A DNA stretch of 64,000 bases, taken from the NCBI RefSeq assembly GCF_005771435.1, contig NZ_VANI01000021.1:1-64000 (forward strand), read 5' to 3'. Both the position numbers and the translations under genes were made by a program. This stretch comes from Microbulbifer harenosus (GTDB taxonomy: Bacteria; Pseudomonadota; Gammaproteobacteria; Pseudomonadales; Cellvibrionaceae). Below are positions 18,090-62,166 of the stretch, one piece after another; position 1 is the first letter of the stretch, and each line of letters starts with the position of its first letter. The notes below the pieces were generated by a model that saw nothing but the letters and a program-made list of their open reading frames with translations, made no database searches and was not told the origin of the DNA.

Positions 18090-18201
18090 GGCAGATCGGT
18101 GGGGATTCGTTTTTGAAACCGCCATGAATACGTCCCTGTAGGCTGCGTCGGAAACATCCCTGTTTCCGACGCTTTCAAAAACGAATCCCCACCGCTCTGC
18201 C
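18090..18201 (+). repeat. Palindromic element, copy A
   Basis: Outer arms of 29 bases at 18090-18118 and 18173-18201 are complementary with one mismatch. They enclose a core with CCGC, TGAATAC, CTGTA, GCTGCGTCGG, and an inner perfect 10-bp hairpin GTCGGAAACA / TGTTTCCGAC around TCCC. The core is shared with copies B, C and D, but the arms are different in each. It lies just after the symporter stop. Confidence 0.85.
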
Positions 18202-18334
18202 TTCGCATCGGTTCCTGTACTTCGTTAGTAAAAAAGAAAAACTCCTTAGCGTGAATAATTACGAAGTGACAACTTTCCAGTTATCCACTGTTCGAAAAAG
18301 CTGACGAAGTGCAGTACCCGAATTGAAGGTAAAG

Positions 18335-18432
18335 CACCGGGTAGCCCCTTTCGGAAGCGTCGGCGACAGGGACGTCGCCGACGCAGCGTACATGGATGTA
18401 TTCACAGCGGTTCCGAAAGGGGCTACCCGGTG
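18335..18432 (-). repeat. Palindromic element, copy B (inverted relative to A)
   Basis: Perfect 22-base arms at 18335-18356 and 18411-18432 (ends CACCGGGTAG / CTACCCGGTG). Read on the reverse strand, the core matches copy A (CCGC, TGAATAC, GTACGCTGCGTCGG, TCCCTG). The inner hairpin is changed on both sides (GTCGGCGAC / GTCGCCGAC), keeping pairing. Together with A it forms a head-to-head pair filling the gap between two convergent genes. Confidence 0.85.
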
Positions 18433-18480
18433 ATTTTCCGCCACAGGAGCGAGAACAGGGCTCGAACCACCAGCACCGTA

Positions 18481-18517
18481 CCCCAAACCCCAAACCCCAA
18501 ACCCCAAACCCCAAAAA
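18481..18517. repeat. Short tandem CCCCAAA heptamer array
   Basis: Five consecutive C4 runs separated by AAA. On the reverse strand this reads (GGGGTTT)n, a telomere-like, potential G-quadruplex sequence. It lies immediately beyond the yceI terminator on the strand yceI is transcribed from. Confidence 0.85.
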
Positions 18518-18520
18518 CAA

Positions 18521-18546
18521 GAAACCCGGCACTGAGGCCGGGTTTC
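18521..18546 (-). terminator. Rho-independent terminator of yceI
   Basis: GAAACCCGGC and GCCGGGTTTC pair as a 10-bp stem with a 6-base loop. Reading on the reverse strand the stem is followed by TTGTTTTTGG, a U-rich tail. It sits 40 bp after the yceI stop codon. Confidence 0.8.
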
Positions 18547-18585
18547 CTGTCCATCCTGTGAGACGGAAGTCGTTTCAACGAAGGC

Positions 18586-19152
18586 TTACTGGCGGACACC
18601 TTCCACATCCAGAATCAGCTCAACGGTCTGGGACGCCGGGCCCAGGTCGTAGTCAATGCCGAAGTCTTTCAGTTTGAACTCAGTCTTGCCGGTGAAGCCC
18701 TGACGGTAGCCACCCCAGGGGTCCTTGCCACCACCGATCTCGGTCACATCAATCGCGATCGGCTTGGTCACACCGTGCAGGGTCAGGTCGCCCTTCAGGA
18801 CCGCCTTGCCATCGCCCTTCGGCTCAAAACTGGTGCTCTTGAAGGTGGCAGAGGGGAACTTGTCTACGTTCAGGAAATCCTTGCCGCGCAGGTGCTTATC
18901 GCGCTCCGCATGGTTGCTGTTCAGGCTGGTGGTGTCCACCGTCATCTCAATGGAAGAAGCTTCCGGCTTGGCTTCGTCATAGGAAAAGCTGCCGTCAAAC
19001 TTGTCAAAGCGGCCATACAGCCAGCTGTAACCGAGATGCTTGATGCGGAACTGCACAAATGCGTGTGCACCCTGGGTGTCGACTTTATAAATGGCCGCCT
19101 GGGCAGAAGTGCCGACCAGCGCAGCGAACAACAGAACAGCAAGTTTCTTCAT
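18586..19152 (-). CDS. YceI-family periplasmic protein
   Basis: 188 residues with a clear Sec signal peptide ([19 protein letters not shown], cleavage after AQA). The mature part is a YceI lipocalin-like beta-barrel: [43 protein letters not shown] and [23 protein letters not shown]. The family binds isoprenoid or other hydrophobic ligands in the periplasm and is often paired with a cytochrome b561, as here (85 bp downstream of it on the same strand). That pairing suggests a shared envelope redox or quinone-related role. A T-tailed hairpin follows the gene. Confidence 0.92.
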
Positions 19153-19207
19153 GGTTCAGTTTCCTGTGGTTGGGTCCAAATCATTGGATTCGAGAAAAAT
19201 CGAAAGT

Positions 19208-19219
19208 GAGTGATCACTC
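19208..19219. promoter_or_regulatory. Perfect 12-bp palindrome upstream of yceI
   Basis: GAGTGATCACTC lies 56 bp upstream of the yceI start, in the short gap after the cytochrome b561 gene. It could be an operator; no regulator can be assigned. Confidence 0.25.
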
Positions 19220-19237
19220 TCAAGGTCAAAACTTATC

Positions 19238-19801
19238 TCAGGCGGCATTATTGCGCGGCGCCAGCCCGAACATCTTTCTGAGTGTGCCATCTTTATTGAC
19301 GAAATGATGCTTGAAGGCCGCAAGTCCGTGCAGCAGTACCAGCCCCATCAGCGTCCACGCCAGATACTTGTGGATCACCCCCGCGATATCCTCCTGATTC
19401 TCCAGCCCCTGCAGAGTGGCCGGTACTTGAAACCAGCTGAAAACCTCAATCGCGCGGCCATCTGCCGTACTGATCAGATACCCGGAAACGGAAATCGCCA
19501 GCAACAGGCCATAAATTACCCAATGCGCGAAACCCGCCGCACGCTGCTGCCAGCGCGGCGCGGGCTCCGGTGCAGGGCTCACATTGGCCCAGCGCCACAG
19601 CAGGCGCGCCGTCAGCAGAATCAGCAGCAGAATACCGACGGACTTATGGATATCCGGGCCCTGGCGATACCAGGGGTCGTAGTAAGACAATCCGCGCATC
19701 CACCAGCCCAGTGCAAACATACCGATGATCGCCGGCGCCATCAGCCAGTGGAAGGCGACGGCCACCCAGCCATAGTGCGTCGGACTGTTGCGGGTCTGCA
19801 T
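19238..19801 (-). CDS. Cytochrome b561 (dihaem membrane cytochrome)
   Basis: 187 residues from the ATG at 19801, which follows AAGGAGTGG; a longer in-frame reading to 19933 has no such site. Four membrane helices carry the haem-ligand histidines of the CybB type: VAVAFHWLMAPA (helix 1), DIHKSVGILLLIL (helix 2), and HKYLAWTLMGLVLLHGLAAFKHHF (helix 4). It should pass electrons from quinol to a periplasmic acceptor. It precedes yceI on the same strand, a common pairing. Confidence 0.9.
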   Translation of the reverse strand: MQTRNSPTHYGWVAVAFHWLMAPAIIGMFALGWWMRGLSYYDPWYRQGPDIHKSVGILLLILLTARLLWRWANVSPAPEPAPRWQQRAAGFAHWVIYGLLLAISVSGYLISTADGRAIEVFSWFQVPATLQGLENQEDIAGVIHKYLAWTLMGLVLLHGLAAFKHHFVNKDGTLRKMFGLAPRNNAA

Positions 19802-19982
19802 TGGTAATTCCACTCCTTTTCTGAGAAGGCTCGCATTATAAAAATTCTCGAGCGCTGGAATAGCGCAAAAAGCCGGAACTATTTTTCGAAAAATTCGCAC
19901 GTGTGCCAATTGCGGTTGGCTATGGCCTGCCATTGGCTCAGCCTATGGCAGATCAGGACGGGTAGCGGAGCGGGAGATTGGG

Positions 19983-20699
19983 TCAGTGGTGAGCGCTGTG
20001 CTGGCGTTCTGCGGCGTTCAGTACTCTGCCCAACAGAACCGGATCCAAATGGGAGCGGTCGCAGAGTTCATGGGTGAGCCAGTCGAGGTCATGCGCGGGT
20101 GCGCCTCCTTCCTGGCCATTTTGCATCGCCATCTGTTCCAGCTGCCAGATCACGTCGAGCAGCAGGTCGGGTGCTAATGGTTGCTCATCGTCGCTGGAGA
20201 ACAGTTCGCGCTCCAGCCGATCCAGATCCCGGCGCTTTACCACCAGCTCACTGTAGTTGGGATACCAGTGGCTACTAAAGGGCTCGGGGCGGTTGCTGAA
20301 ATCGAAGGCGATCCGCAGGCGGTTGCCGTCGGTATCCTGGAGCGTCGGGGTGTCGTTTTCTTCCGCTGGCAGTGCGGGGCGCTGGCGCAGGACACCGACG
20401 ATGGCACGCCAATCGCTGCTGTGCTCGGGGCTGAGGCGCAGGGGGTGTTTAAGGGTGGTGCGGGGCTTTTCCGGCAGGTCGATATAGCTGAGCATCTGGC
20501 CGGGGCGGTACCAGTAAAGATCCAGCAGGTGGTCTTCAGCGAGACGGGCGAGGTCGTCGCTGGTCAACGGTTCTTCCGACAGGGCGCTCAGATGATCGAC
20601 GGCCTGCTGGATACTGAGCCAGCGCCGCATGTGGAATGGCCTGTCGTTTGAATTTCCCGCCGCCATGCTCGCCCCGTTTCCCTGCGATTTTTTACCCAT
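19983..20699 (-). CDS. Hypothetical cytoplasmic protein
   Basis: 238 residues, no signal peptide or membrane segment. The N-terminus (WLSIQQAVDHLSALSEEPLTSDDLARLAEDHLLDLYW) looks like a helix-turn-helix/excisionase-type fold. A Pro-rich middle and a C-terminal helical part (LDWLTHELCDRSHLDPVLLGRVLNAAERQ) follow. I do not recognise the family; a DNA-binding or adaptor role is only a guess. The start is uncertain: ATG codons at 20699, 20666 and 20630 are all possible and none has a strong site. It is downstream of corA by 64 bp on the same strand. Confidence 0.6.
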   Translation of the reverse strand: MGKKSQGNGASMAAGNSNDRPFHMRRWLSIQQAVDHLSALSEEPLTSDDLARLAEDHLLDLYWYRPGQMLSYIDLPEKPRTTLKHPLRLSPEHSSDWRAIVGVLRQRPALPAEENDTPTLQDTDGNRLRIAFDFSNRPEPFSSHWYPNYSELVVKRRDLDRLERELFSSDDEQPLAPDLLLDVIWQLEQMAMQNGQEGGAPAHDLDWLTHELCDRSHLDPVLLGRVLNAAERQHSAHH

Positions 20700-20763
20700 T
20701 TAAGGTTAGCAGTTGGCGGTGGATTTGGTGGGGCATCGCTGCCTTCGCATCGGAGTTTTGATG

Positions 20764-21717
20764 CTACAACCACCCCTTCTTCTTGAAGTAGAGATACGGC
20801 GCCATGCCCGCCATCAACATCAACAACAGCGCCCAGGGGTAGCCCAGCAGCCACTGTAGCTCCGGCATGTGCTCGAAGTTCATGCCGTAGATGCTCGCCA
20901 CCATGGTGGGCGGCAGGAAGACCACCGCGGCGATGGAGAAGATCTTGATGATCTTGTTCTGTTCGATATTGATGAAACCCTGGGTGGAGTCCATCAGGAA
21001 GTTGATCTTCTCGAACAGGAAGGTGGTGTGTGACATCAGGGTGTCGATATCGCGCAGGATGCCCCAGCAGTCTTCGCGCAGTTCCGGGTCGTCTTTCAGG
21101 TGGCGCTGCAGGAAAGCGATGGAGCGCTGGGTGTCCATCAGGCACAGGCGGATTTTTCCGTTGGAGTCCTCAAGCTTGGCGAGGTGGTCGATGGCGTCTT
21201 CCAGGTCCGCCTCCTCCTCTTCGAGCACCAGGTGGCTGACTTCACCGAGTTTCAGGTAGTTGTCTTCCAGCGCGTCGGCGAGGTTTTCCACCTTCTGTTC
21301 AAATAGCAGGATTAACAGCTCCTGCGCATTGTGCGCCTCCACCTGGTTGCGGCGGGCGCGCATGCGCAGCAGGCGGAAGTCCGCGAGTTCGCTCTCGCGC
21401 ACGGTGATCAGACGCTGCGGCTGCAGGATGAAGGCGACGGTGGCGGTATCGTGGCGGCCTTCGCTCTGGGTCAGGTACAGGGAGTGTACGTGAATGCCAG
21501 CGGTATCCACGAAGTAGCGCGCGGACGATTCGATCTCGTCCACGTCCTCAGACTCCGGCAGTTCAGTGCGCAGCAACTGCTCCAGCAGGTCGCGCTCGTC
21601 GTCCTCCGGATCTTGTAAGTCGATCCAGGCGGCGTCGGACAACGGCTGGGTGTGGTAGTCGCTGCCGGCGTAGGTTTCTTTGATCTTGCCGCGGAGGATT
21701 TGAAACAGTCTCAGCAT
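20764..21717 (-). CDS. corA: CorA-family magnesium/cobalt (or zinc) transporter
   Basis: 317 residues from the ATG at 21717, preceded by AAGGAAG. A large acidic cytoplasmic domain with long helices (VLEEEEADLEDAIDHLAKLEDSN) leads into two C-terminal membrane helices. The YGMNF signature, here YGMNFEHMPEL, which forms the pore selectivity loop, is intact. The C-terminus ends KKKGWL, as usual for the family. It imports divalent cations as a pentamer in the inner membrane. The E-x-MPEL loop type is shared by CorA and ZntB-like members, so the ion is not fully certain. Confidence 0.92.
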   Translation of the reverse strand: MLRLFQILRGKIKETYAGSDYHTQPLSDAAWIDLQDPEDDERDLLEQLLRTELPESEDVDEIESSARYFVDTAGIHVHSLYLTQSEGRHDTATVAFILQPQRLITVRESELADFRLLRMRARRNQVEAHNAQELLILLFEQKVENLADALEDNYLKLGEVSHLVLEEEEADLEDAIDHLAKLEDSNGKIRLCLMDTQRSIAFLQRHLKDDPELREDCWGILRDIDTLMSHTTFLFEKINFLMDSTQGFINIEQNKIIKIFSIAAVVFLPPTMVASIYGMNFEHMPELQWLLGYPWALLLMLMAGMAPYLYFKKKGWL

Positions 21718-21858
21718 TACCGCTTCCTTGGTGGTCAGGGTTGTGCCGCGGCACGGGGCCCCGGGTAGTGTGGGGCATGGTGTCAGCCTGTCGACCACAA
21801 ATCAATTGCCGCCACCCGCGGCGGTGTGCGGGTGGCGTGCGGTAGCGCCTTACGGCTG

Positions 21859-22296
21859 TTAGAGCCACATGGGCAGTTGCGCGCGGATTTCGTCGCTGTC
21901 GCAGGTGGTGAGATTCTTGCGTGATTCGCCGGCGATGGTGGCCAGGCAGGGCGTGCTCATGGACATACGCAGGCTGCCGGCCATAGAGGGGTCGGCAACG
22001 ATGTAGAGACGGTCAAAGCGCCCCTGTTGGCGGCCGCGCTCCAGAGCATGGGCGATATCGCGTGCGAATTTGCGCGCGCCCTGTTTGCGCAGGCTGGTGG
22101 GTTCCTCCATGGCGTGGCGGCCCTGGCCTTTGCTGTCGAAGGCGCGCCCCGGGGCGTCGCTGAGTAGCTCCCGGCCTTTCATGCGTCCTTCCGGATAAAC
22201 CAGAGATTCTATTTCTGTCAGGGAGCCCGCACGTTTTTCCGCTTCAAATACGCGGGCATGAGTATGGTTGGCTACCAGAACCCAGGCTTTTGACAT
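21859..22296 (-). CDS. Host attachment protein family (PF10116-type)
   Basis: 145 residues starting MSKAWVLVANHTHARVFEAE, the typical N-terminus of the 'protein required for attachment to host cells' family. Further marks are HAMEEPTSLRKQGARKFARDIAHALERGRQ and LYIVADPSMAGSLR. The fold resembles an eRF1/baeRF-type domain. A plant-attachment role has been reported for one homologue, but in marine bacteria the function is unknown and often stress-linked. The longer in-frame reading to 22671 adds a Pro/Arg-rich non-family segment and is rejected. Confidence 0.85.
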   Translation of the reverse strand: MSKAWVLVANHTHARVFEAEKRAGSLTEIESLVYPEGRMKGRELLSDAPGRAFDSKGQGRHAMEEPTSLRKQGARKFARDIAHALERGRQQGRFDRLYIVADPSMAGSLRMSMSTPCLATIAGESRKNLTTCDSDEIRAQLPMWL

Positions 22297-22759
22297 GGCC
22301 GTATACCTCTGTTTATTGCTGAGTCTTACTGCCCAATGGTAGGCCGGTGGGGGTGGGCTTCCTAATGGAGATACGGTCGGGACACGCTGGTGCCGGGGAG
22401 GAGGTGGGAGGATTCCGGTCAAAAAAAGTGCGTCCCTGCACTCATAACGCCAGCCGGCGGGCGTATAACGCCGGCTCGCCCCGAAATTGCAAGATGCGGA
22501 GAAATCCCGGGACAGTGCATCCGTGCACTGCGTGCTTGAAGCGCGCCTTGGGTCCCGCCTGTGAACAGGCCCCTGCGCATCAGAACTCCTTGGTATTCGC
22601 CGCGAGCACCGTGATGTGCAAAAAAATAAATGCGAATACTTATCATTTATAGTAAAGTTTTTTCGCTCCACTTTCCTGGTTTTCCGGTGTGCGCAATCGG
22701 CAAATTGCTATGCGGAATCGCCAGGCTGGTCAGTTATCGGAGATGGAACGGATGGGGAT
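22297..22759. other. Divergent intergenic region, 463 bp
   Basis: Contains the promoters of the reverse-strand attachment-type gene and the forward AraC gene, and the Fur-like site listed separately. No coding or RNA feature was seen; the in-frame extensions of both neighbours into this space have non-family, low-complexity translations. Confidence 0.45.
22627..22651. promoter_or_regulatory. Candidate Fur box
   Basis: An AT-rich stretch reads, on the reverse strand, AAATGATAAGTATTCGCATT. This matches the Fur 7-1-7 consensus TGATAAT-A-ATTATCA at TGATAA and ATT. It lies ~110 bp upstream of the AraC-family gene, a typical place for iron control of a siderophore regulator. Confidence 0.4.
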
Positions 22760-23824
22760 ATGGAAAACGCGAGAAAATCGGCGCTGAAGGAGCGGCCAAA
22801 AATGGATAAAGATGGGGCCGCTGAACGGTCGCCGCTTCGGCAGCAGACACTGGAAGACATGCTGGAAGTCACGGGTGTGCGCCACCGTATTTTTCCCTCG
22901 GGAAGTGTGGAGAACTCCCGCAATGTGGTGATGCGCGGGCGCTTCTCATTTCACAACCACGGCGGGCTCAGTGTGCACTGCGGTCACGGTGTCGAAACCC
23001 GCAGCCTCAGTAGCGTGGCGGAGCTGCCTCCCGGTCTGAGTTTCAATCTGCTGTTTCGTGGCAGTGTGGATTTTTCGCTTGGTGGCCGCAGGCATCGCCT
23101 CGGTGCTCGCGATCTGTCGCCCATAGAGTGTTCCGGTTTCGCGCTCTCGCGCCCGGAAATGATGACCCGATTTACCCGCAGCGGTGCCTATGTCGACAAG
23201 CTGAATATTTTTGTACAGCAGAGCTGGTTGCAGCAGCGCTGCCAGTCGGAAGCGGGTAGGGTGCAGGTGCAACGCCTGTTTGCCCGCCATGCCATCCCCC
23301 ACTTCTGGGCTGCCGACGCCGAAACCGAGTCCCTCGCCCGGCGACTGATGGCGCTTGACGCCGCGCAGAGTTTCAGTGAACAACTGCAGCAGGAACAGCT
23401 CGCGATCGAACTTCTGTCCCGCTGTGTTGATGCGTTTGACGCGCAGCTGCTCGCTGGCGATGTTCGCCCGGCGGCGTTGCCGGGAGCCAGTGATTTTTTG
23501 CTGAAACAACGGGTGGATGAAAAACTGCGCGATTGCCGTGGTCTGAATGAGATTGCCACCGCGCTCGGGGTCAGCGTCAGTACGCTGCAGCGCAAGTTCA
23601 AAGCGGTTTACGGCACCACGGTGATCGACTACGTGCGCCGTCGCCGTCTGGAAATCGCCCGCGCTGCGCTCATTATGGACGGGCTCAGCATCGGCGAGGC
23701 CGCCTATCTGGCCGGTTACAATCACGCGTCCAATTTTGTTGCGGCGTTTAAAAAAGCCTTTCAGGTGACGCCTGCGCAACTGGTGCGCAGTCACCGGCGG
23801 TCGAGGAGATTCGAACCGGGCTGA
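22760..23824 (+). CDS. AraC/XylS-family regulator, PchR-like
   Basis: About 354 residues. The C-terminal ~100 residues carry two helix-turn-helix motifs: LNEIATALGVSVSTLQRKFKA and LSIGEAAYLAGYNHASNFVAAFKKAF, followed by the closing VTPAQLVR. The N-terminal half (ELPPGLSFNLLFRGSVDFSLGGRRHRL) resembles the ligand-binding part of PchR-type siderophore regulators. Start is uncertain: ATG at 22760 with a weak GGGGAT, or ATG at 22802. A Fur-like site lies upstream, supporting iron-dependent expression. No siderophore genes are in the window; the nearest TonB receptor is at 26067. Confidence 0.8.
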   Translation: MENARKSALKERPKMDKDGAAERSPLRQQTLEDMLEVTGVRHRIFPSGSVENSRNVVMRGRFSFHNHGGLSVHCGHGVETRSLSSVAELPPGLSFNLLFRGSVDFSLGGRRHRLGARDLSPIECSGFALSRPEMMTRFTRSGAYVDKLNIFVQQSWLQQRCQSEAGRVQVQRLFARHAIPHFWAADAETESLARRLMALDAAQSFSEQLQQEQLAIELLSRCVDAFDAQLLAGDVRPAALPGASDFLLKQRVDEKLRDCRGLNEIATALGVSVSTLQRKFKAVYGTTVIDYVRRRRLEIARAALIMDGLSIGEAAYLAGYNHASNFVAAFKKAFQVTPAQLVRSHRRSRRFEPG

Positions 23825-23853
23825 GGCTGCGCCAGCGCCGCGAGGTCATCGGT

Positions 23854-23871
23854 TTGTCATGAAACGTACAT
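23854..23871 (+). promoter_or_regulatory. Weak Pho-box-like site
   Basis: TTGTCAT-GAAA-CGTACAT: the first half matches CTGTCAT in 6 of 7 positions, the second in 4 of 7, with the correct 4-base AT-rich spacer. It lies 36 bp before the binding-protein gene. The match is modest. Confidence 0.25.
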
Positions 23872-23907
23872 AGACTGGCCAGCAAGACCGACAGACCATC
23901 ACGGCCC

Positions 23908-33251: not shown

Positions 33252-33782
33252 TCAGCCCGCGCGGCACTCGCCACGGATTTCCACTGATCCCTGCAAGTTA
33301 CTTTTCTCAATCACAAACCAGCCGTGGGGGCAGTAGCTGGTTTTGGCGAGGACTTCCTGCAGGCGTTCCTGCGCGGCTTTTTCCGAGTTTTCCCGCATCT
33401 TGCTGCTCATGCCGCCACCACCGGGGCCACCGCCCACGCCTCCAGGACCGCCGCCCATACCGCCGCCCGGTCCGCCCCCCATACCTCCGCCACCGGGACC
33501 GCCGCCCATACCGCCGCCCGGTCCGCCCCCCATACCTCCGCCACCGGGACCGCCGCCTTTCCCTCCGCTGGGACCGCGTCCGCCGCCGCCCATGCCGCCA
33601 TCCGGGCCGCCGCGTTCACCACCGCTGTTGATCGTGGCGGTGTAGGTGAACATACGGTTGCCCTGTTCGGTGATATTGGCGATGAAGGATTCAGAAAATA
33701 CCGGCGGTGCCTTGGGGGCGCTGGCACACCCGGCGACGGTAGCGATGGCGGCAGCGACCGCGGCAGAACATAGCGCTTTCAT
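33252..33782 (-). CDS. Lipoprotein with glycine-rich tandem repeats
   Basis: 176 residues. The signal peptide ends at a lipobox VAGC (Cys19). A short N-terminal domain (ESFIANITEQGNRMFTYTATI) is followed at ~55-125 by almost pure Gly/Pro/Met repeats with a 17-residue unit (GGPGGGGMGGGPGGGMG). A C-terminal part with two Cys (KTSYCPHGWFVIE...RGECRAG) may form a disulphide. The repeat comes from a 51-bp tandem DNA repeat (~33445-33555). I do not recognise the family. The proline-rich ORFs on the forward strand are shadows of this repeat. Confidence 0.7.
   Translation of the reverse strand: MKALCSAAVAAAIATVAGCASAPKAPPVFSESFIANITEQGNRMFTYTATINSGGERGGPDGGMGGGGRGPSGGKGGGPGGGGMGGGPGGGMGGGPGGGGMGGGPGGGMGGGPGGVGGGPGGGGMSSKMRENSEKAAQERLQEVLAKTSYCPHGWFVIEKSNLQGSVEIRGECRAG
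33445..33546. repeat. 51-bp tandem repeat inside the glycine-rich lipoprotein gene
   Basis: Two nearly identical 51-base units start at 33445 and 33496, with partial units on either side. Each encodes 17 residues, so copy-number changes keep the reading frame; slippage here could vary protein length between strains. Confidence 0.75.
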
Positions 33783-34041: not shown

Positions 34042-37000
34042 ATGTGCAGTGCGTCAGAGAGCGGAGAGCACCGGTATGGCTGGATGCCATTGGTGCAACC
34101 GTGCGCGCAGGGAGCAGCGGATTTCTCGGCGTGTGGCGGGGCGAGGTTGCGCAATTCAAGGAAGAATTATCCGGCAGTCGGCGGCGGTTGGGCGAGAGTG
34201 CTTGGTCTCGTACTTGTCATCGTTGTTGCTGTGGCTGCCGGCACGGCTGGGGCGCAAACCACGCAGACCAGCAATAGCGCGACCATCGCCCTTGATCCAT
34301 CGTCCGATCTGATCGACAGCAACCCCAGCAACAACGAAGACACGGCGGTGATCAATGTCGAACCGCCGCCGGATATCTCCTTCCACAAGAGCGCAGATCT
34401 GGATGTCGCCTCCGTGGGCGACACCATTACCTACACCGTTACCGTCACCGTGGCCGATGCGCCACTGACACAGGATTTTGTGGCGACGGACACTCTGGGA
34501 CCGGGACTTGCCTTTGGCGCTGTCACCAGTTCCGGGAGTTTTTCATGCAACGGTGCCAATCCCCTGCGTTGTACCTTGCCCGCTGGAACCGCACCCGGCA
34601 GCTACAGCTTCAGCTACACCGCGATCGTTACCGACAGCGCGGACACCCAGGTGGAAAACGCGGTGACCGGCGAGGGTGGCGGCGATCCCACACCCAGCTG
34701 CGATGGGGATTGCGACATCGTGATTCCGATCAACCCGGCGGTTACCTATCACAAGGTGGCGGATGTTACCTCAGCGCCGGTTGGCGATATCGTCACCTAT
34801 ACGGTAACGGTGGAGATATCCAATGCGCCGTTGCCGCAGGACCTGTTGCTGCAGGACAACTTCGGCACGGGTCTCGCCTTCGTTGATTTTATTGATCCTG
34901 TGGCGCCGTTCGTGTGCAGCGGCGGGGCCTCACCGCAATGTACGCTGCCCGCGGGCACTGGGCCCGGCAGCTTCACGGTGAGTTATACCGCGCAGATTAC
35001 TCCGGACGCGGGCGCCACGGTGACCAACAACGTGAGTGCCAGCGGTGGCGGCGAACCTCCGGTATGCGATGCCGAGTGCAGCGTGGTAGTGGATGTCGTC
35101 TTTCCGTCAATTGTTTACAACAAAGTGGCGGATACCGCGGGGCCTGTCAGCAGCGGCGAAAACATTACCTACACCATTACCGTTGAAATTGCGGATGCGC
35201 CGCTGAACGCGGATCTGATATTGAGTGACACCCTGGGGCCGGGGCTGGATTTTGTGGCTGTCACCAACGCAAATCCCGCGTTCAGTTGCGGCAGTGGCAT
35301 CTCGTTTGATTGCACCCTGCCGGCAGGCACGGTGCCCGGTGTGTACAGTTTTGACCTCACCGCAACCGTCAACGCCACGGCCACCGGCTCGGTGATCAAC
35401 TCGGTTACCGCCGATGGCGGCGGCGGTAACCAACCGCCGGTGTGTAACCCCGATTGTGATCCGCACGTTCCGATTACCGATACCTATATCACCTACAGCA
35501 AAACCGGTGCGCCCGCGCTGGCACAGATCGGCGATACGGTGACTTATCAGGTGTCCACGACGGTAAGCAACTCAAGCACCACCGCGGAAATACTCGTCGC
35601 GGATACCCTTGGCGCCGGCCTCGTGTTTAACCAGCTTGTCAGTGCAGACAGTGCCTATACCTGCCCCGGCAATACGCTGCCCTGCACCATCCCGGCCAAC
35701 ACGGCACCGGGCACCTATGTACTGACTTACACTGCCACCATTACCGCGGATGCCGGTGACAGCGTCAGCAACGCGCTGGTGGAAACCGGTGGCGGCGGTG
35801 CCGGCCCGGACTGTGTGGGCAGTTGCACTGTGACCACAGATATTCTGCGCCCCGTGGTGACCTACGAAAAAACCGCGAGTCCGGCAGGGCCGGTGCAGGT
35901 GGGTGATCTCATCACCTACACCATCGCGGTGGATGTGGCGGATGCAAGGCTGACCGCGGATCTGCAGCTCACTGACACTCTTGGCACCGGCCTGGACTTT
36001 GTGGGCTTTGACGGTGCCACCGCCCCCTTTACCTGCTCCAGCGGCAACAGTTTCGATTGCACACTGCCCGCCGGCGCGGGCCCCGGTAGCTTCGCCCTTA
36101 CCTTTACGGCGCGGGTGAATGACCAGGCGCTGGCTCAGGTGCAGAACACGGTGACTGCAGCCGGTGCCGACAACCCCACCTGCAGTGGTGACTGCGCGCC
36201 GGTAACACCGCTGGCGGACGCGGGTATCACCGTCAGCAAGGCGGCCTCACCGTCACCAGTGGCGGTGGGCGATACCATCACATTCACCGTGACCACCACC
36301 ATTGCCAGTGCCCCGCTCACCTCGGACCTGCAGCTCACCGACACCCTCGGTACCGGGCTGACCTTTGCCGGGCTCGACAGTGCCAATACTGATCCCGCCT
36401 ACCAGTGTGCCCTGGGTGATCCGCTTTACTGCGCCCTGCCGGTGGGCACAGCTCCAGGCACTTATGTCGTTACCTATATGGCGACGGTCAATGCCTCCGC
36501 TGGGGAATCGGTGGAAAACAGTGTGGAAGCCACTGGCGGCAGCGAGACTCCCCCCGATTGTGTGGACTGCGCAACGGTGACGCCGGTCATCCGCCCGGCG
36601 GTTACCTACCGCAAAGTCCCCGATGTGACTCAGGTGGAAATCGGCGATGTGGTGACCTATACCGTGTCGGTAACCGTGGCCGATACCGCGCTCGACGGTG
36701 ACGTGGTGTTGCAGGATGCGCTCGGCAGTGGTCTGCAGTTCCAGGCGTTCGACCAGCCCACCGATCCGTTCAGTTGTACTGGTTCAGGCCCTCTTATCTG
36801 CACGCTGCCCGCGGGCACCGCACCGGGTACCTACACATTCAGCTACACCGCGCTGGTAACGCCGGAGGCGGGTACCAGTGTCAGCAACCGGGTAACGGCA
36901 TCGAACGAAGGTGGCGGCAATCCACCGGAATGCGATGGCGACTGCGCACCGGTGATTCCCGTGGTGGGGCCGCAGATTACCTACAGTAAAACGGCAGACA

Positions 37001-39576
37001 AAGACCGCACGGCGGTGGGCGACACCATCACCTACACCGTCGAGGTGGAGATTACCGATGCTGCGTTGTCCAGCGATCTGAACCTGGAGGACAGTCTCGA
37101 CATCGGTCTGATCTTCGGCACCCTGATACAACCGGTCGATCCATTCAGCTGTAGCCCGGGCAAACCACTCCAGTGCGTGTTGCCGAACGGCACCCAGCCC
37201 GGTACTTACGCATTCAGCTATACCGCAACGGTGACCGAGGACGCGGGTCAGAGCGTGCGCAACCAGGTGACCGCAAGTGGCGGCGGCGGCGATCCGGTGT
37301 GCAGTGCGGAATGCGCCATCATCATCCCCCTGGCACCGCAGGTGACCTATCACAAAACTGCAGTGCCGGCCGAAGCCCAGGTGGGCGACACCATCACCTA
37401 CACCGTCGACGTCATGGTGCGCGATGCGGATCTCAGTGAAGACCTGACACTGACCGACACCACCGCAACGGGGCTTGCCATTGAGCAGGTCACGGATGCC
37501 GGTAACTTCCGTTGCAGCGGGCAGAATCCGCTTACCTGCGTGTTGCCCGCGGGCACCGCGCCGGGGGATTACCAGCTGACCTATACCGCGCTGGTTACCG
37601 AGGATTCCGGGGATTCTGTCAGCAACTCGGTGGTCGCCAGCGGAGGCGGAACTCAGCCGGAGTGCGACGGTGAATGCGCAGTGACCACGCCGGTTAAACG
37701 GCCCGCGGTGACCTATGAGAAAAGCGCCAGCGTCAGCCAGGTGCGCCCGGGTGACGTGGTGACCTACGGCCTGAGTGTGACCGTAACTGCGGCGGCGCTT
37801 TCTGAGCCGGTTGTACTCACGGACACACCGGGAGTGGGGCTGTCTTTTATTGCCGTCACCGACAGCGGAGGCTTCAGCTGTAACGATGCCTCGCCGCTGG
37901 TGTGCAGCCTGCCGGCGGGCACCGCGCCTGGCACCTACAGCCTGCAGTACACCGCCCGGGTAACTGCCGAGGCCAGTGGCACCGTGGATAACGCGGTGGT
38001 GGCCAGCGGTGGTGGCGGCAGCACACCGGCCTGTGCGGAGCAGTGCGACATCCACATCCCGCTGGTCGACCCGCAGATTACCGTGAGCAAATCGGCCAAC
38101 CCCGTTTCCGGCACGGAAGTGGTTGTGGGGCAGACCATTGTTTACACCTTGCTGGTGGGCATCGAAAACTCCGCGCTGCCGGAAGACCTGCTGTTGACCG
38201 ACATCGCCGACACCGGGTTGACCATCACCTCAATACCACCGGACTGTGTACAGAACGGCAATGAATTCCAGTGCACCCTGCCCGCGGGCTCACCGGTTGG
38301 CGAATATGAATTGATGTATACCGCCGTGGTCAACAACGGTGCCGGCGCAGAGGTGACCAATCTGGTGGTGCCGGCGGGCGGCGGTGATGCAAATCCCGAG
38401 TGCGCGGTGTGCGAAACCCGACACCCGGTGGAACCGGTGAGCATCCGCCTGCAAAAAACCGCGAGCGTGCGGGAAGCGCAGGTGGGCGACATCGTGTTCT
38501 ACACCCTCACCGCAGAGAACATCAGCAGTCGCGACCTGATCAATGGCATCGTTGTGGACACCCCGCCGGCCGGGTTCACCTATGTGGAGGGATCCCTGGT
38601 GGTGGACGATGTGGACCAGAGCGGAATCCTGCTCAACACCTATCCGCTGACCGTGGGTGATATCGACATTCCCGCCGGTGACACCGCCATCATTTCTTAC
38701 GCCCTGCGTGTCGGCGCCGGCGTGCGCCCGGGCAGCTACGTCAACGAAGCGGAGGTGCAGGACGCAGACGGCGATAGCGTGTCCAACCGCGCCACCGCGG
38801 AAGTGGTGCTCGCCGTGGACCCGCTCACCCAGGAATCCCTGATCATCGGCACCGTCTTCCACGACCGCAACGGCAACAGCATTCAGGACAGTGCGAACCT
38901 TACCGGGGTACGTGTGCGCGGTGGATTCGACCCCGCGTTTTACGTGCCCGGTACTACCTCGATCAACGGTGTAGCCGTCGCCGATGCCAGCGCGCCGCTG
39001 CTGCGCGGGCTCGAACTGGGAGAACTGCCCGGCGTATCGGGCGAGGGTAGCGGGCAGGCGCGCATTGTTATTCGCCAGAAGCTTACACGGGCCGCGTTTA
39101 CCGACGACTTCAAACTCAGCAGCCATCAGGGATACACCCTGCGCCTCGATGCCGCCGGTGTGGCGCGCGTGCGCCAGGGCAATTCCGCGGCGGCGGTCCA
39201 GATCAAGCGCCGCCTGGAAATCACCGGCGATGGGGTATTTGTGGACTACATCATCGTCAATCGCGGCCTGGATGAACGCGGTATTCCCGGGGTGCGTATC
39301 GCGTCGGTGGACGGACTGCTGGTGGAAACCGATCGCTACGGGCGCTACCACCTGGTGGGTATCGACGGCGGCCACTGGGAGCGCGGGCGCAACTTCATTC
39401 TCAAGGTGGATACCGCGACCCTGCCGGAAGGAACCCGCTTTACCACCAGCAACCCGTTGATCCGGCGTGTTACCCCCGGGGTGCCGGTGCGTTTTGATTT
39501 CGGCGTGCTGTTGCCGCCGCTGTACCCTGACCAGCCCGCGAGTGCTGCCCGGCCGTTACATGGGGGTGCCGAATGA
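34042..39576 (+). CDS. Giant secreted DUF11-repeat surface protein
   Basis: 1844 residues. A hydrophobic signal (VLGLVLVIVVAVAAGTAGAQ) sits unusually far in, after ~50 residues, so the true start may be later; no start has a good site. Residues ~111-1595 are twelve DUF11 (TIGR01451-type) beta-sandwich repeats. Each opens with a 'Y-x-K-x-A...VGD-x-x-TYTV' strand and contains FSC...CTLPAGTAPG and a closing P-x-C-x3-C, giving two Cys pairs per repeat. Residues ~1600-1844 hold an SdrD B-like segment (GTVFHDRNGNSIQD, GLLVETDRYGRYHLVGIDGG). It is probably an extracellular adhesin or matrix protein. Its stop overlaps the next gene's ATG (ATGA). Confidence 0.82.
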   Translation: MCSASESGEHRYGWMPLVQPCAQGAADFSACGGARLRNSRKNYPAVGGGWARVLGLVLVIVVAVAAGTAGAQTTQTSNSATIALDPSSDLIDSNPSNNEDTAVINVEPPPDISFHKSADLDVASVGDTITYTVTVTVADAPLTQDFVATDTLGPGLAFGAVTSSGSFSCNGANPLRCTLPAGTAPGSYSFSYTAIVTDSADTQVENAVTGEGGGDPTPSCDGDCDIVIPINPAVTYHKVADVTSAPVGDIVTYTVTVEISNAPLPQDLLLQDNFGTGLAFVDFIDPVAPFVCSGGASPQCTLPAGTGPGSFTVSYTAQITPDAGATVTNNVSASGGGEPPVCDAECSVVVDVVFPSIVYNKVADTAGPVSSGENITYTITVEIADAPLNADLILSDTLGPGLDFVAVTNANPAFSCGSGISFDCTLPAGTVPGVYSFDLTATVNATATGSVINSVTADGGGGNQPPVCNPDCDPHVPITDTYITYSKTGAPALAQIGDTVTYQVSTTVSNSSTTAEILVADTLGAGLVFNQLVSADSAYTCPGNTLPCTIPANTAPGTYVLTYTATITADAGDSVSNALVETGGGGAGPDCVGSCTVTTDILRPVVTYEKTASPAGPVQVGDLITYTIAVDVADARLTADLQLTDTLGTGLDFVGFDGATAPFTCSSGNSFDCTLPAGAGPGSFALTFTARVNDQALAQVQNTVTAAGADNPTCSGDCAPVTPLADAGITVSKAASPSPVAVGDTITFTVTTTIASAPLTSDLQLTDTLGTGLTFAGLDSANTDPAYQCALGDPLYCALPVGTAPGTYVVTYMATVNASAGESVENSVEATGGSETPPDCVDCATVTPVIRPAVTYRKVPDVTQVEIGDVVTYTVSVTVADTALDGDVVLQDALGSGLQFQAFDQPTDPFSCTGSGPLICTLPAGTAPGTYTFSYTALVTPEAGTSVSNRVTASNEGGGNPPECDGDCAPVIPVVGPQITYSKTADKDRTAVGDTITYTVEVEITDAALSSDLNLEDSLDIGLIFGTLIQPVDPFSCSPGKPLQCVLPNGTQPGTYAFSYTATVTEDAGQSVRNQVTASGGGGDPVCSAECAIIIPLAPQVTYHKTAVPAEAQVGDTITYTVDVMVRDADLSEDLTLTDTTATGLAIEQVTDAGNFRCSGQNPLTCVLPAGTAPGDYQLTYTALVTEDSGDSVSNSVVASGGGTQPECDGECAVTTPVKRPAVTYEKSASVSQVRPGDVVTYGLSVTVTAAALSEPVVLTDTPGVGLSFIAVTDSGGFSCNDASPLVCSLPAGTAPGTYSLQYTARVTAEASGTVDNAVVASGGGGSTPACAEQCDIHIPLVDPQITVSKSANPVSGTEVVVGQTIVYTLLVGIENSALPEDLLLTDIADTGLTITSIPPDCVQNGNEFQCTLPAGSPVGEYELMYTAVVNNGAGAEVTNLVVPAGGGDANPECAVCETRHPVEPVSIRLQKTASVREAQVGDIVFYTLTAENISSRDLINGIVVDTPPAGFTYVEGSLVVDDVDQSGILLNTYPLTVGDIDIPAGDTAIISYALRVGAGVRPGSYVNEAEVQDADGDSVSNRATAEVVLAVDPLTQESLIIGTVFHDRNGNSIQDSANLTGVRVRGGFDPAFYVPGTTSINGVAVADASAPLLRGLELGELPGVSGEGSGQARIVIRQKLTRAAFTDDFKLSSHQGYTLRLDAAGVARVRQGNSAAAVQIKRRLEITGDGVFVDYIIVNRGLDERGIPGVRIASVDGLLVETDRYGRYHLVGIDGGHWERGRNFILKVDTATLPEGTRFTTSNPLIRRVTPGVPVRFDFGVLLPPLYPDQPASAARPLHGGAE

Positions 39577-58019: not shown

Positions 58020-58075
58020 GCTCGCATTTTCGTTGGATTTTCCGCGTTTAAAAACTCAGGCCTAAAAGTCTTGGC

Positions 58076-59290
58076 CTAAAAACAGGTATCGACGGTTTCC
58101 AGCACATTGAAGTCGTCGTCGATCACCAGCAGCTGTCGCCACTTGTCGAAGGTCAGGCACGGATGCGAGGTGGAAAGCGCGAGCATATCGCCCACTTGAA
58201 GATCCGCGTCCTCGGGGATTTTCATCATCGCGTGCTGGTCCATGATGCCGGTGAGTTGCCAGCTTTCGTCCGCCGCGCGCGGTGCGCCATCCCGGCCCGG
58301 GCGAAAATGCCGTTCCGGGCGCGGCAGTCCCGCATCATAGGCCGCGTCCCGTTTGCCGAAATTCAGGATAGCCATACCGGGTTCTGGCAGCGACTGCACA
58401 TAGGCCCAGACCTCCAGTGCCGAGTGCAGATCTCCCGGTGGGCAGCAGCGCCCCTCCATCCTTTGCATTACTCCTGCCTGCGCCTTTTGGTAGATGCCGC
58501 GGTCGTGGGTGAGATAGCAGCCGGGGCGCAACACCGGCAGGAGGCGCGGTTCGCGGTGATCGGTAAAAACCTGTGCAACCAGGTCGTACCAGGCGGAGCC
58601 GGCGCCGCTCAGTATCGCCGTTTCGATGCCGATTTTCTCTTGCGCCAGCAGTTCCAGGCACAGGTCGCGCACCTCCTGCAGGTGCTCGATCACCCGCGTC
58701 TCGGCGCGCTCGCCCTGAATCAGGCCCTCATAGGTTTCCACCCCGGCCAGCTGTAGCTGTGGCCAGCGTTGGATTTCGTCGCACAGGGTGTGGGCCTGTG
58801 CAGAATCGCGGCAACCGGTGCGGCCGCCGCGTACGCCGACTTCGAGCAGCAGTTTCAGCGTCTGTTGCCTTTCCGCGAAAAAAGTCCCCAGCTGCCGCGC
58901 GTTTTCCACAGAGTCGATCAGGCAGTAAAACTCCAGCTGCGGGTAATCCGCCAGCAATGCGCTGGCCAGCTGCATATTGCCGCGGCCGACAAGCTGATTG
59001 GCCATCAGCACCCGTGTCGCGCCGGCCTCCGCGGCCACCCGCGCCTGTTGCGGGTTGGCGACGGTCATGCCCCAGGCGCCTGCGGCCAGCTGGAGGCGGA
59101 AGAACGCCGGGGTCATGGTGGTCTTGCCGTGGGGCGCTAGCTTCACGTCATGTTGATCGGCAAAGGCCTGCATCCACTGCAGGTTGTGTTGCAGGCGCGT
59201 GCGGTACACCACCGCTGCCGGCAGTGGGATGTCCTCGCGCAGCAGGTTGGGTGTAGGGCGTGGGTTTTCCGTCTTGTGAGAAAGGTTCAT
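58076..59290 (-). CDS. DSD1-family PLP enzyme (D-serine dehydratase/D-threonine aldolase-like)
   Basis: 404 residues from the ATG at 59290 (GGAGCC upstream). The N-terminal alanine-racemase-type barrel has the PLP lysine K56 in LAPHGKTTM. The C-terminal beta domain carries the metal site H376-x-C378 in TSHPCLTFDKW, characteristic of zinc-dependent D-serine dehydratase/D-threonine aldolase relatives. No signal peptide, so cytoplasmic. With a D-aminoacylase and RidA in the same island, the likely reaction is loss of ammonia from a D-configured 2-amino-3-hydroxy acid such as D-glucosaminate, giving a 2-keto-3-deoxy acid. The precise substrate is inference. Confidence 0.85.
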   Translation of the reverse strand: MNLSHKTENPRPTPNLLREDIPLPAAVVYRTRLQHNLQWMQAFADQHDVKLAPHGKTTMTPAFFRLQLAAGAWGMTVANPQQARVAAEAGATRVLMANQLVGRGNMQLASALLADYPQLEFYCLIDSVENARQLGTFFAERQQTLKLLLEVGVRGGRTGCRDSAQAHTLCDEIQRWPQLQLAGVETYEGLIQGERAETRVIEHLQEVRDLCLELLAQEKIGIETAILSGAGSAWYDLVAQVFTDHREPRLLPVLRPGCYLTHDRGIYQKAQAGVMQRMEGRCCPPGDLHSALEVWAYVQSLPEPGMAILNFGKRDAAYDAGLPRPERHFRPGRDGAPRAADESWQLTGIMDQHAMMKIPEDADLQVGDMLALSTSHPCLTFDKWRQLLVIDDDFNVLETVDTCF

Positions 59291-59330
59291 CGGGCCGGCT
59301 CCATCCCAGTTGTCAGAATAAAGTTTGGTA

Positions 59331-59369
59331 GAAAGTATCACATAAATAATTATGGTGTTGAAAGTAACA
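59331..59369. promoter_or_regulatory. Candidate tandem RpiR sites
   Basis: GAAAGTATCA (59331) and GAAAGTAACA (59360) are direct repeats 29 bp apart, in the AT-rich gap between the divergent PLP-enzyme and RpiR genes. A related GTTGAAAGTTA occurs upstream of the receptor gene. Confidence 0.35.
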
Positions 59370-59489
59370 AACACGATACCTATACTGCACCGACTTGAGT
59401 AACATCCATATCCGCTTCTGAAGCCCGCCCTCTGGCCGTCCGCCGACGGCGTGCGGGATTCGAAACTCCAGCAAAACAGGAAAGCTGCC

Positions 59490-60356
59490 GTGAGTCACGA
59501 ACCGGATATTGTCTCGAAGATTAACGCCCATTACGGCCAGTTGCGCGATGCAGAACAGAAGATTGCCCGGCTGGTGACGGACGATATCAGCTTCGCCGCT
59601 CACGCCAGTATCAGTGAGCTGGCGAGCAAAGCCGGCGTCAGTGAGGCCACGATTACCCGCTTTGCCAAGGCGGTGGGTTGCAAGAATGTGCGCGATCTCA
59701 AACTGCGGCTGGCGCAGGCGGTGGCCATCGGGCAGCGGTTCTACACCGAAGTCAAAGTGGAGCCGGGAGCCAATTACGGGGTTTACGACGAGATCAAAGC
59801 GGCGCTGGATCACAATGCGCGGCTGATTACCGAAGCCGTGATTGAGCCCGCGGTGGAAGCGCTGGCGCGCGCGCGACAGATTTTGATTTTCGGAGTGGGC
59901 GGCGGTTCCACGGTATTTGCGCAGGAGTGCCAGCATCGGTTTTTCCGGCTCGGCTTTCCGGCCACCTCCTATTCGGATCCCATGCTGATGCGCATGGCCG
60001 CCTCCACCATCGACAGCAACGATGTGGTGCTGTGCCTGTCCATGGGCGGTTACAGCCCGGATGTGCAGGAAGCGGCGGAGATTGCGCGGGAATATGGCGC
60101 AACGACGTTGGGTGTGACGGTGGCGGATTCGCCATTGGCGCGGGTGCTGCACCACCTGGTGCCGATGGAGCCGCTGGAGACGGACTACATCTTCAAACCC
60201 ACCGCCGCCCGCTACGTCATGCTCGCCGCCATCGACGTGCTGGCCACGGAGCTGGCGGTAAAACAGAAACGCAAAAGCCGGGAGGCGCTCAGGCGCCTCA
60301 AGCACACTCTGGACAGCCACAAGCACGGTGAAGACCGTTTGCCATTGGGAGACTGA
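59490..60356 (+). CDS. RpiR/MurR-family transcriptional regulator
   Basis: 288 residues from a GTG at 59490 with AGGAAAG upstream; an earlier in-frame GTG at 59451 lacks a site. The N-terminal HTH_6 domain (~1-80) includes FAAHASISELASKAGVSEATITRFAKAVG. The C-terminal SIS domain (~115-250) includes ILIFGVGGGSTVFAQECQHRFFRLG and VVLCLSMGGYSPDVQEAAEIARE, which bind sugar phosphates or acids. It is divergent from the PLP-enzyme/GH20/lactonase genes and starts a forward operon with the deacylase. It is therefore the probable local regulator, responding to an amino-sugar intermediate. Confidence 0.92.
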   Translation: MSHEPDIVSKINAHYGQLRDAEQKIARLVTDDISFAAHASISELASKAGVSEATITRFAKAVGCKNVRDLKLRLAQAVAIGQRFYTEVKVEPGANYGVYDEIKAALDHNARLITEAVIEPAVEALARARQILIFGVGGGSTVFAQECQHRFFRLGFPATSYSDPMLMRMAASTIDSNDVVLCLSMGGYSPDVQEAAEIAREYGATTLGVTVADSPLARVLHHLVPMEPLETDYIFKPTAARYVMLAAIDVLATELAVKQKRKSREALRRLKHTLDSHKHGEDRLPLGD

Positions 60357-60380
60357 ACGGAGGGAACAAAAGGGACGGGA

Positions 60381-61820
60381 ATGAAATACGATACGGTGAT
60401 TCGCAAAGGCTCGGTTGTCGACGGCAGCGGTGCCGCCATCTTTACTGCCGACATCGCCCTCGCCGAAGGCCGTATTCAGCGCATCGCCGAGCCCGGTAGC
60501 ATTTCTGAGCCTGCCCGGGAAATCATCGAGGCGGAAGGCCTGCATCTCGCCCCCGGATTTATCGACGTCCACACCCACGACGATCTGGAAGTCATCCACA
60601 AACCGCAGGTGCCCGCCAAAATCAGCCAGGGTGTGACCACCGTCATCGTCGGCAACTGCGGCATCAGCGCCAGCCCCGTTACGCTCAACAGCGATCCACC
60701 CGACCCGCTGAATCTGCTCGGCGACCGCGCGCGTTTCACCTATCCGCAATTTTCCGACTACGCCCGCGCGGTGCAGGAATCCCGTCCCAACGTCAACGTG
60801 GCCGCACTGGTAGGGCACACGTCACTGCGCAACAACCACATGGACGACCTGCAGCGTACCGCCAGCAAATCCGAACTCGCCGCCATGCGTGCGCAATTGC
60901 GTGAGGCGCTGCAACAGGGCGCGATTGGCCTCAGCTCCGGCCTTGCCTACGGCAGCGCGAAATGTGCGGATACCGCAGAAGTGTTGGAAATGGTCGCGGA
61001 ACTGGCGGCGCAGGGCGGGGTGTACACCACGCATCTACGCACCGAGTTCGACCGCATTCTAGATGCCATCGACGAAGCCCTGCTGACCGCGCGCGAACAC
61101 CGCGTGCCGCTGATTGTCTCCCACCTGAAATGCGCCGGGCGCGGCAATTGGGGGCGCAGTGGGGAAGTGCTCGGGGCATTGGAAAATGCTGTTCAGCATC
61201 AAAAAGTCGCTTGTGACTGTTACCCCTATACTGCGAGTTCGAGCACGCTGGACTTGTCGCAGGTGGCGGACGATATCGACATTTTCATCACCTGGTCCGA
61301 GCCGTTTCCGGAGCAGGGCGGTCGGCCCTTGGCGGAGATTGCACGGGAGTGGAATCTCTCCTGCTATGAGGCGGCGAAAAAGTTGCAGCCGGCGGGTGCG
61401 GTGTACCACTGTATGAGTGATGAGGATGTAAAAAATATCCTCAGGCACCCGCTGACCATGGTCGGTTCCGATGGCCTGCCCAACGATCCGCATCCGCACC
61501 CGAGATTGTGGGGGGCCTTTCCTCGTGTGCTCGCCCAGTACGGGCGGGAGCTTGGTCTGTTTGATCTGCCGCAGGCGGTGCACAAGATGACCGGGCTTTC
61601 GGCGACCAATTTCGGGTTGGCGAATCGCGGGTTTATTCGCGAGGGTTATTCTGCGGATCTGGTGTTGTTTGATTACGCTGGGCTGGAATCGCTGGCGAGT
61701 TATTCCGAACCGCAAAGAGCGGCGCGGGGGATTTCACGGGTCTGGGTGAATGGGGTTTGTGCTTATTCCGACGGTGTTGTGTTGGATAGCCGGAGTGGAG
61801 CGTTTTTGTTTCGCGGCTAG
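60381..61820 (+). CDS. N-acyl-D-amino-acid deacylase (D-aminoacylase)
   Basis: 479 residues; a zinc amidohydrolase of the D-aminoacylase type. Metal-site residues are visible: H64 and H66 in FIDVHTHDD, the bridging Cys93 in VGNCGIS, THLRTEFD and VSHLKCAGRGNWG, and the catalytic Asp in MVGSDGLPND. Length and order match characterised D-aminoacylases (~480 aa). It lies 24 bp after rpiR. Canonical enzymes deacetylate N-acetyl-D-amino acids. In this island an equally fitting substrate is N-acetyl-D-glucosaminate, which has the same D-alpha-acetamido acid group. Confidence 0.93.
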   Translation: MKYDTVIRKGSVVDGSGAAIFTADIALAEGRIQRIAEPGSISEPAREIIEAEGLHLAPGFIDVHTHDDLEVIHKPQVPAKISQGVTTVIVGNCGISASPVTLNSDPPDPLNLLGDRARFTYPQFSDYARAVQESRPNVNVAALVGHTSLRNNHMDDLQRTASKSELAAMRAQLREALQQGAIGLSSGLAYGSAKCADTAEVLEMVAELAAQGGVYTTHLRTEFDRILDAIDEALLTAREHRVPLIVSHLKCAGRGNWGRSGEVLGALENAVQHQKVACDCYPYTASSSTLDLSQVADDIDIFITWSEPFPEQGGRPLAEIAREWNLSCYEAAKKLQPAGAVYHCMSDEDVKNILRHPLTMVGSDGLPNDPHPHPRLWGAFPRVLAQYGRELGLFDLPQAVHKMTGLSATNFGLANRGFIREGYSADLVLFDYAGLESLASYSEPQRAARGISRVWVNGVCAYSDGVVLDSRSGAFLFRG

Positions 61821-61877
61821 GTTCTGTGGTTCTTTTCGGGCTCCGTGGTGCTCTGTTCGGGGTTCGGGGCGGCAAAT

Positions 61878-61974
61878 CACTGGGCGGGTACTTTCAGAAC
61901 CGCTGTGAACCCATCCCTGGGAGCTGCGGCGCAAACATCCTGTTTGCGACGCTTCTGAAAGTGCCCGCCCAGTG
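61878..61974 (+). repeat. Palindromic element, copy C
   Basis: 22-base arms at 61878-61899 and 61953-61974 pair with a single G:T-type mismatch (ends CACTGGGCGG / CCGCCCAGTG). The core has CCGC, TGTGAAC, GCTGCGGCG and an inner stem GCAAACA/TGTTTGC around TCC. Orientation matches copy A; the arm sequence is different from A, B and D. Confidence 0.82.
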
Positions 61975-62054
61975 CTTTACCTTAGCTTCGAATTTCTGTA
62001 CTTCGTAAGCTCGATCGCTCATGCCACTTACGGAGTAAGAAAATTCAATGCGAA

Positions 62055-62166
62055 GGCGGAGCGCCGGGTAAAGCCTTTCGGGAGCGTCGGCAACAGGGAT
62101 GTTGCCGACGCAGCGTACAGGGACGTATTCACAGCGGTCCCGAAAGGCTTTACCCGGTGCTCCGCC
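62055..62166 (-). repeat. Palindromic element, copy D (inverted relative to C)
   Basis: 29-base arms at 62055-62083 and 62138-62166 with one wobble-type mismatch (ends GGCGGAGC / GCTCCGCC). The core on the reverse strand reads CCGC, TGTGAATACG, TCCCTGTACGCTGCGTCGG, with an inner stem GTCGGCAACA/TGTTGCCGAC around TCCC. It ends 55 bp before ridA. Confidence 0.85.

Follow-up and report, generated by a model that had tools for sequence, protein, structure and literature searches.

A high-copy extragenic palindrome of Microbulbifer and other Gammaproteobacteria, with a fixed core and self-pairing arms that change in blocks

Several families of palindromic repeat are known from the spaces between bacterial genes, among them ERIC, YPAL, Correia/NEMIS and RPE, which are 100–170 nt long and have stems conserved in sequence. 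REP, BIME and REPIN sequences are described as high-copy extragenic palindromes near the 3' ends of genes, with units of 20–40 (60) nt, inverted doublets and reported compensatory changes in REPIN spacers (PMC3116915, PMC3733652). The ERIC-like elements are reviewed with similar bacterial MITE-like repeats in PMC2229807, and template switching, a process reported to make and mend perfect stems, is described in PMC8794818. Here we describe a repeat found as four copies (A to D) in a 64,000-nt stretch of the Microbulbifer harenosus genome (NZ_VANI01000021.1, positions 1 to 64,000; hereafter the window). It is like REP and REPIN sequences in being extragenic, high in copy number and arranged in inverted doublets, but unlike them it is a 126-nt Y with long arms of free sequence and has no conserved GTAG/CGTC end (its foot was read by eye and is variable in other families). 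From ERIC-like repeats, as these are generally characterised, it is set apart by that freedom of arm sequence, and the family is apparently unnamed. The original prediction, made from the window alone, knew of no such family either, and Rfam gave no match at gathering score in the window or in six loci of other families. A permissive scan paired the Yersinia small RNA Ysr224 (RF02770) with A (28.9 bits, E 1.7e-4) and B (20.9 bits, E 0.031), far under its gathering score of 70 bits and probably through a shared long-hairpin shape. In the literature the core sequence was not found in any paper, nor was the element described among the search results, as judged by their listings.

The genome of M. 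harenosus holds at least 152 copies of this ~126-nt unit. A covariance model (R1; 126 positions, built from 31 copies) matches 148 of 150 scored candidates genome-wide, which is a lower bound, and four further copies lie in other stretches (L084:1842, L130:1960, L099:4965 and L047:2187); the exact core pattern has 99 matches, against 0 for a reversed-pattern control. Each unit folds as a Y in which a palindromic outer stem of ~25 pairs, standing on a foot (GTGGCGG ... CTTCG, the GTGGCGG being present in most Microbulbifer copies), encloses two hairpins. The first consists of GCC or CGC, TGAA, a short stem and a loop, and the second of an 8–12 bp stem and a loop, both loops reading RTCCMT on the forward strand; beyond each foot a weaker consensus continues for ~20–25 nt. 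Two subtypes are present, type I (97 of 150) and type II (53 of 150).

The family extends well beyond this species. Matches were found in 39 of 58 genomes, namely this one, 34 of 36 of the genus and, within the order, 4 of 21 further genomes. These last four (G039, G041, G046 and G054) belong to other families and keep the core; judged by coordinates, convergent (+−) doublets are seen again in G039 and G041, and tandem copies in G046. Within the order, a second model, built from the copies of these four genomes (an alignment with three antisense or partial rows and some repeats), matched 160 of 390 genomes, covering 72 of 143 genera; within the class it matched 71 of 369, of which 69 lie outside the order. 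This screening scored nine candidates per genome and gave rough E-values; its five top new loci in the class have the same core and self-pairing arms. Neither plasmids nor phages gave a blastn match, each having been searched with a single query (a G039 copy and copy D).

Placement was examined for 150 copies against our own gene calls, made by hexamer scoring. Copies lie mostly just downstream of genes, at distances from the preceding stop codon that cluster at ~17–50 nt, and only one of the 150 overlaps a predicted gene. Between co-directional genes, 59 copies are antisense and 53 sense; 35 lie between convergent genes and three between divergent ones. Of the 76 singles, 26 are sense and 32 antisense (P 0.51), 15 lie between convergent genes and 3 between divergent ones; divergent gaps thus hold 3 of 76 singles but make up 53 of all 380 intergenic gaps (P 0.004). 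The further paired copies that the original prediction expected are present genome-wide: 34 doublets within 600 bp against ~3.3 expected at random, beside 80 singles, with 31 in the +− orientation, three −+ and none in tandem. Cargo between more distant + and − copies was considered and rejected, the open reading frames (ORFs) called at six such loci (0.35–3 kb apart) being ordinary-looking and of varied size. Calling genes by longest ORF puts many spurious ORFs on the palindromes; left unnamed, a family of this spread can burden annotation and can also mislead assemblies and covariation-based RNA discovery.

What distinguishes the element is the relationship between its arms. A fixed core flanked by differing arms that each pair with themselves had been proposed from four copies, and it holds across 150: in an alignment fitted to the covariance model, 96.4% of pairs are standard, against 70.0% when shuffled and 38–46% when slid, with two-sided changes in 34 of 40 pairs. 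Outer-stem cells comprise 3567 Watson-Crick pairs, 84 A.C, 13 G.T and 85 other mismatches. Both G.T and A.C pairs are rare, which speaks for pairing preserved in DNA and not within a single RNA strand; wobble as scarce as this looks unlike what a helix kept as RNA would leave. The asymmetry between A.C and G.T was entertained as the sign of a functional strand and set aside as weak away from the foot (25 and 9 in the inner 19 outer-stem pairs; 20 and 17 in other families). That arms are unrelated between copies proved only partly correct. In this genome, left arms are 65% identical between copies of type I and 62% between those of type II, with 95% self-pairing, and B and D are 83% identical across 133 nt, arms included. 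The description fits the other families better, with between-copy identities of 0.37 (G039), 0.38 (G041) and 0.35 (G054), near-unrelated arms in each case, and 0.50 in G046, alongside self-pairing of 0.97, 0.93, 0.91 and 0.88, respectively. The original prediction was to fail if arms were conserved genome-wide or further pairs lacking: Microbulbifer gives a mixed answer for the arms, and the doublets and the other families clearly favour the prediction.

Comparison of two close species (G028 and G031), with flanks ~95% identical, reveals how such arms change. Twenty chosen regions of contig C1 in each gave 49 paired rows, of which two were dropped for low flank similarity, leaving 47 orthologous copies; 11 copies had no orthologous partner. 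The 47 pairs fall into 22 conserved copies, differing by at most nine mismatches, and 25 replaced ones, differing by at least 13, so that about half of the paired sites have undergone replacement. Across 550 arm pair positions in the conserved copies there are 18 one-sided changes and a single two-sided change; the replaced copies hold 151 two-sided Watson-Crick changes, 53 one-sided and 11 two-sided without pairing kept on both. Since two-sided changes occur almost only in replaced copies, paired changes arrive as blocks, and arm co-variation comes in jumps. The original prediction had taken co-varying arms to imply selection on structure or a mobile hairpin; gradual co-variation as proof of the former is not supported by the conserved orthologues. 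Subtype is the same in all 47 pairs (chance of 25 of 25 agreements in replaced copies, P ~2e-7), and the drop in identity is limited to the element and ~50 nt per side, flanks more than 60 nt out being ~90–98% identical in both classes. A few pairs may represent intermediates: arms nearly identical with the core changed (L281:4110/L301:4201), one arm differing with the other kept (L298:16239/L318:16217), and the same site with orientation flipped (L287:8745/L307:7787). At L313:14515, compared with L293, a partial deletion has left one arm end. Other short palindromic modules are present in one orthologue and absent from the other at hairpin loops or the junction: one of 31 nt (L318:719-875 vs L298:676-801), one of 14 nt (L300:731-871 vs L280:670-796), and one of 52 nt (L305:5124-5304 vs L285:5101-5229), the last being found again in that loop in L099 of M. 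harenosus.

The reading that we favour, with modest confidence, is of a non-coding, high-copy extragenic palindromic DNA repeat, REP/BIME-like in number, placement and doublets and without evident tie to a RAYT, in which the two arms of a copy are rewritten jointly, probably through hairpin-templated repair. The unit would at times form a DNA hairpin or cruciform from single strands exposed by replication or transcription. Its core would be kept because some factor reads the two loops, and where ectopic recombination or a deletion had changed one arm, that arm would be re-copied from its partner by template switching or hairpin-templated repair, such that arms stay self-complementary and their sequence remains free. 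Among known processes, template switching comes nearest to such re-copying: the hairpins described in PMC8794818 are alike in having perfect stems through one arm being copied from the other, but are reported there for RNA genes, whereas the element here is a dispersed repeat with a constant core. Placement after genes may be tolerated because the palindrome is a strong hairpin in either orientation, and might even be useful as a 3' barrier on mRNA.

Several observations weigh against this account. Template switching was not seen in action, one-sided changes stay uncorrected in conserved copies, alignments made with a covariance model lean towards structure, and no mobilising enzyme was identified in the analysis. 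The search for donors covered 66 and 72 copies from the two genomes and, for most replaced arms, came up empty: the nearest same-genome copies are typically 9–11 mismatches off, with few exceptions at 2–5 (L255 lies within 2–4 mismatches of a few G031 copies), a distance resembling that of unreplaced copies and of another species. Rows with zero mismatches are at least partly one copy in two loci, among those checked (L257 = L301:4201; L267 = L313:726). Lacking a close donor, the data demonstrate neither simple ectopic conversion nor recent transposition, and the inspected G028/G031 sites offered no clean empty site and no target duplication as direct signs of mobility. Compensatory base changes commonly pass for proof of selected RNA structure; in this class-wide repeat, massive co-variation comes by block replacement, with arms that are self-complementary and free in sequence. 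The alternative, a mutational, hairpin-templated maintenance of pairing, can thereby be put to the test, each genome supplying hundreds of natural replicates.

The most serious competitor concerns the loops. RsmE/CsrA proteins are described as binding the consensus RUACARGGAUGU, an ANGGAN hexaloop and CAGGA(U/A/C)G on hairpins (PMC7652899), and on the strand opposite to forward the loops of the element take just this form. In hairpin 1 the loop is ANGGAN for 146 of the 150 copies, the other four having inserts; hairpin 2 reads ANGGAN in 107, AGGAN in 30, has inserts in five and other sequences in eight (six of them with GGA), making 253 ANGGAN, 30 AGGAN, nine inserts and eight others among 300 loops. 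In both hairpins the loop is closed by a C-G (or G-C) pair, and its variation falls on the two N of ANGGAN. The full consensus RUACARGGAUGU occurs in 39 of 150 copies and ACARGGAUGU in 72, with none on the forward strand; outside elements, RUACARGGAUGU occurs twice in 519 kb (0.25 expected) and freestanding hairpins with the same loop only twice in 540 kb. ANGGAN loops are also found in G039, G041, G046 and G054 (41 of 43 and 34 of 43; 75 of 86 together). A scattered CsrA/RsmA-binding RNA element, acting as a decoy or as a site in the 3' untranslated region (UTR), of which one CsrA dimer could take both loops, is a possible though less likely reading. The GGA hexaloops on hairpins are shared with RNAs of the CsrB/RsmZ type as these appear in PMC7652899; unlike them, the element has two sites per unit, over 150 dispersed copies and unbiased orientation. 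Against a CsrA/RsmA role, the match to the motif was noticed after the fact, singles are unbiased with respect to transcription, G.U is rare in stems, and the element offers only two sites on stems far stronger than those of the ligands obtained by systematic evolution of ligands by exponential enrichment (PMC7652899). Furthermore, no csrA match was found in G017, G026 and G027 (at least 60, at least 60 and 58 elements), in sequence that is possibly incomplete, and the CsrA match of G007 is a 33-residue piece only. If the loops do bind CsrA, this global regulator would face hundreds of dispersed sites absent from all models.

Rather less probable is a stronger version, in which the repeat would be a class-wide mobile CsrA/RsmA decoy: a Y with dual ANGGAN hairpins, its doublets giving one functional copy in either direction of transcription and its arms self-copied and free to drift. 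Were this so, copy number would buffer CsrA across the Gammaproteobacteria. As a separate observation in raw counts, with ancestry ignored, most element-rich Microbulbifer genomes have one csrA, the exception being G005 (59 matches, nine csrA), and G002, G003, G008, G009, G013, G029 and G036 have 1, 1, 2, 5, 12, 1 and 3 element matches, respectively, and 5–19 csrA-like genes.

It is worth noting that the original prediction itself offered a mobile hairpin copying its own flank, by which arms would be made anew at each insertion through inverted copying of local sequence. Such an origin would suit the arms of G039, G041 and G054 (35–38% identity between copies, 91–97% self-paired), and the want of a donor for replaced arms leaves it some room. 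We nevertheless consider it improbable, in that Microbulbifer arms keep a consensus (62–65%), nine of 47 orthologous copies show no differences, their arms being identical, replacement at a given site stays within subtype (25 of 25), and no pre-existing arm was seen at any near-empty site inspected.

An ordinary structured RNA, whether terminator or 3' UTR element, with stems co-varying under selection, fares slightly worse and is doubtful. The folds are indeed very strong for either strand: in single-strand DNA folds, z against shuffles is −13.1 for A, −11.2 for B, −8.8 for C and −11.3 for D, and RNA folds are also far below shuffles on the strands tested. The position of many copies soon after stop codons would suit it too. 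Orientation, however, is random, G.U is rare, changes in unreplaced copies are one-sided, and the window elements carry no terminator-like tail: no T tract directly follows the hairpin at A to D (tested in the window only), and the single terminator-like site around C/D is upstream of C, with none around A/B. Promoters were not found around the window copies, save for one weak site left of A.

Mobilisation of the repeat as a REP/REPIN family by a RAYT (Y1 tyrosine transposase) is highly unlikely and was rejected, for although the repeat is high-copy, extragenic, palindromic and in inverted doublets and this genome has three Y1_Tnp genes, G011, G021 and G035 hold 51, 49 and 18 elements with no Y1_Tnp match (past RAYTs being possible), no element lies within the 6.3 kb examined at the three Y1 loci here, one of these (L128) has on its flanks a 25-nt REP of its own, different in sequence, and a 126-nt unit is far from the 20–40 (60) nt of REP. 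At L128:2852-3448, the RAYT-like gene region is flanked by this separate REP, TGTAGGAGCCTGCTTGCAGGCGAAC, in inverted arrangement.

Returning to the window, the four palindromes stand where they were originally placed, as two head-to-head (convergent) doublets, A/B and C/D, and the core pattern with at most three mismatches matches at exactly these places (shuffle mean 0.01). All are type I, and coordinates include the feet. Copy A (18085..18210, +; R1 131.2 bits) runs from foot GTGGCGG through outer stem, hairpin 1 and hairpin 2 to foot CTTCG. By its fold, a left main arm of 22 nt (18097..18118) pairs with its complement on the right (18173..18194), around hairpin 1 (18121..18143; loop GTCCCT, AGGGAC on the other strand) and hairpin 2 (18145..18172; 12 bp stem, loop ATCCCT, AGGGAT on the other strand, counting the six bases that the final C-G pair encloses), both loops agreeing with the loop counts. 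Copy B (18319..18444, −; 135.4 bits) faces it across 108 bp between model ends, with folded left and right main arms at 18411..18432 and 18335..18356. Copy C (61866..61990, +; 127.2 bits) has a CCC/GGG hairpin 1, a five-base hairpin 2 loop (CAGGATG on the other strand) and main arms folding at 61878..61899 and 61953..61974. Copy D (62046..62171, −; 142.5 bits) converges on C with 55 bp between model ends, its 20-nt left main arm at 62138..62157 folding with the right at 62064..62083. Main stems of A, B, C and D are thus 22, 22, 22 and 20 bp, each with a foot stem in addition.

Of the 18 related loci that follow the same transporter gene (L132–L149), six have elements there: two in M. aggregans, one in M. 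marinus, two in M. guangxiensis, two in M. flavimaris, one with a remnant in M. elongatus, and in M. mangrovi a stretch cut by the contig end; none was seen in the stretch shown of the remaining 12. The B copy of M. elongatus carries the core type of its neighbours' A, which points to exchange between copies. In M. elongatus SaN0-4 (L133:5400-5520), copy A is reduced to GTGGCG and the outer end of the right arm, most of the palindrome having been deleted. Elsewhere in the window, a short telomere-like AACCCCA run lies between copy B and a yceI-like gene (18470-18515), a proline/glycine-type repeat of 12–15 nt occupies 33413-33622, and an ORF of 1844 codons with repeats of ~370 nt spans 34042-39576.

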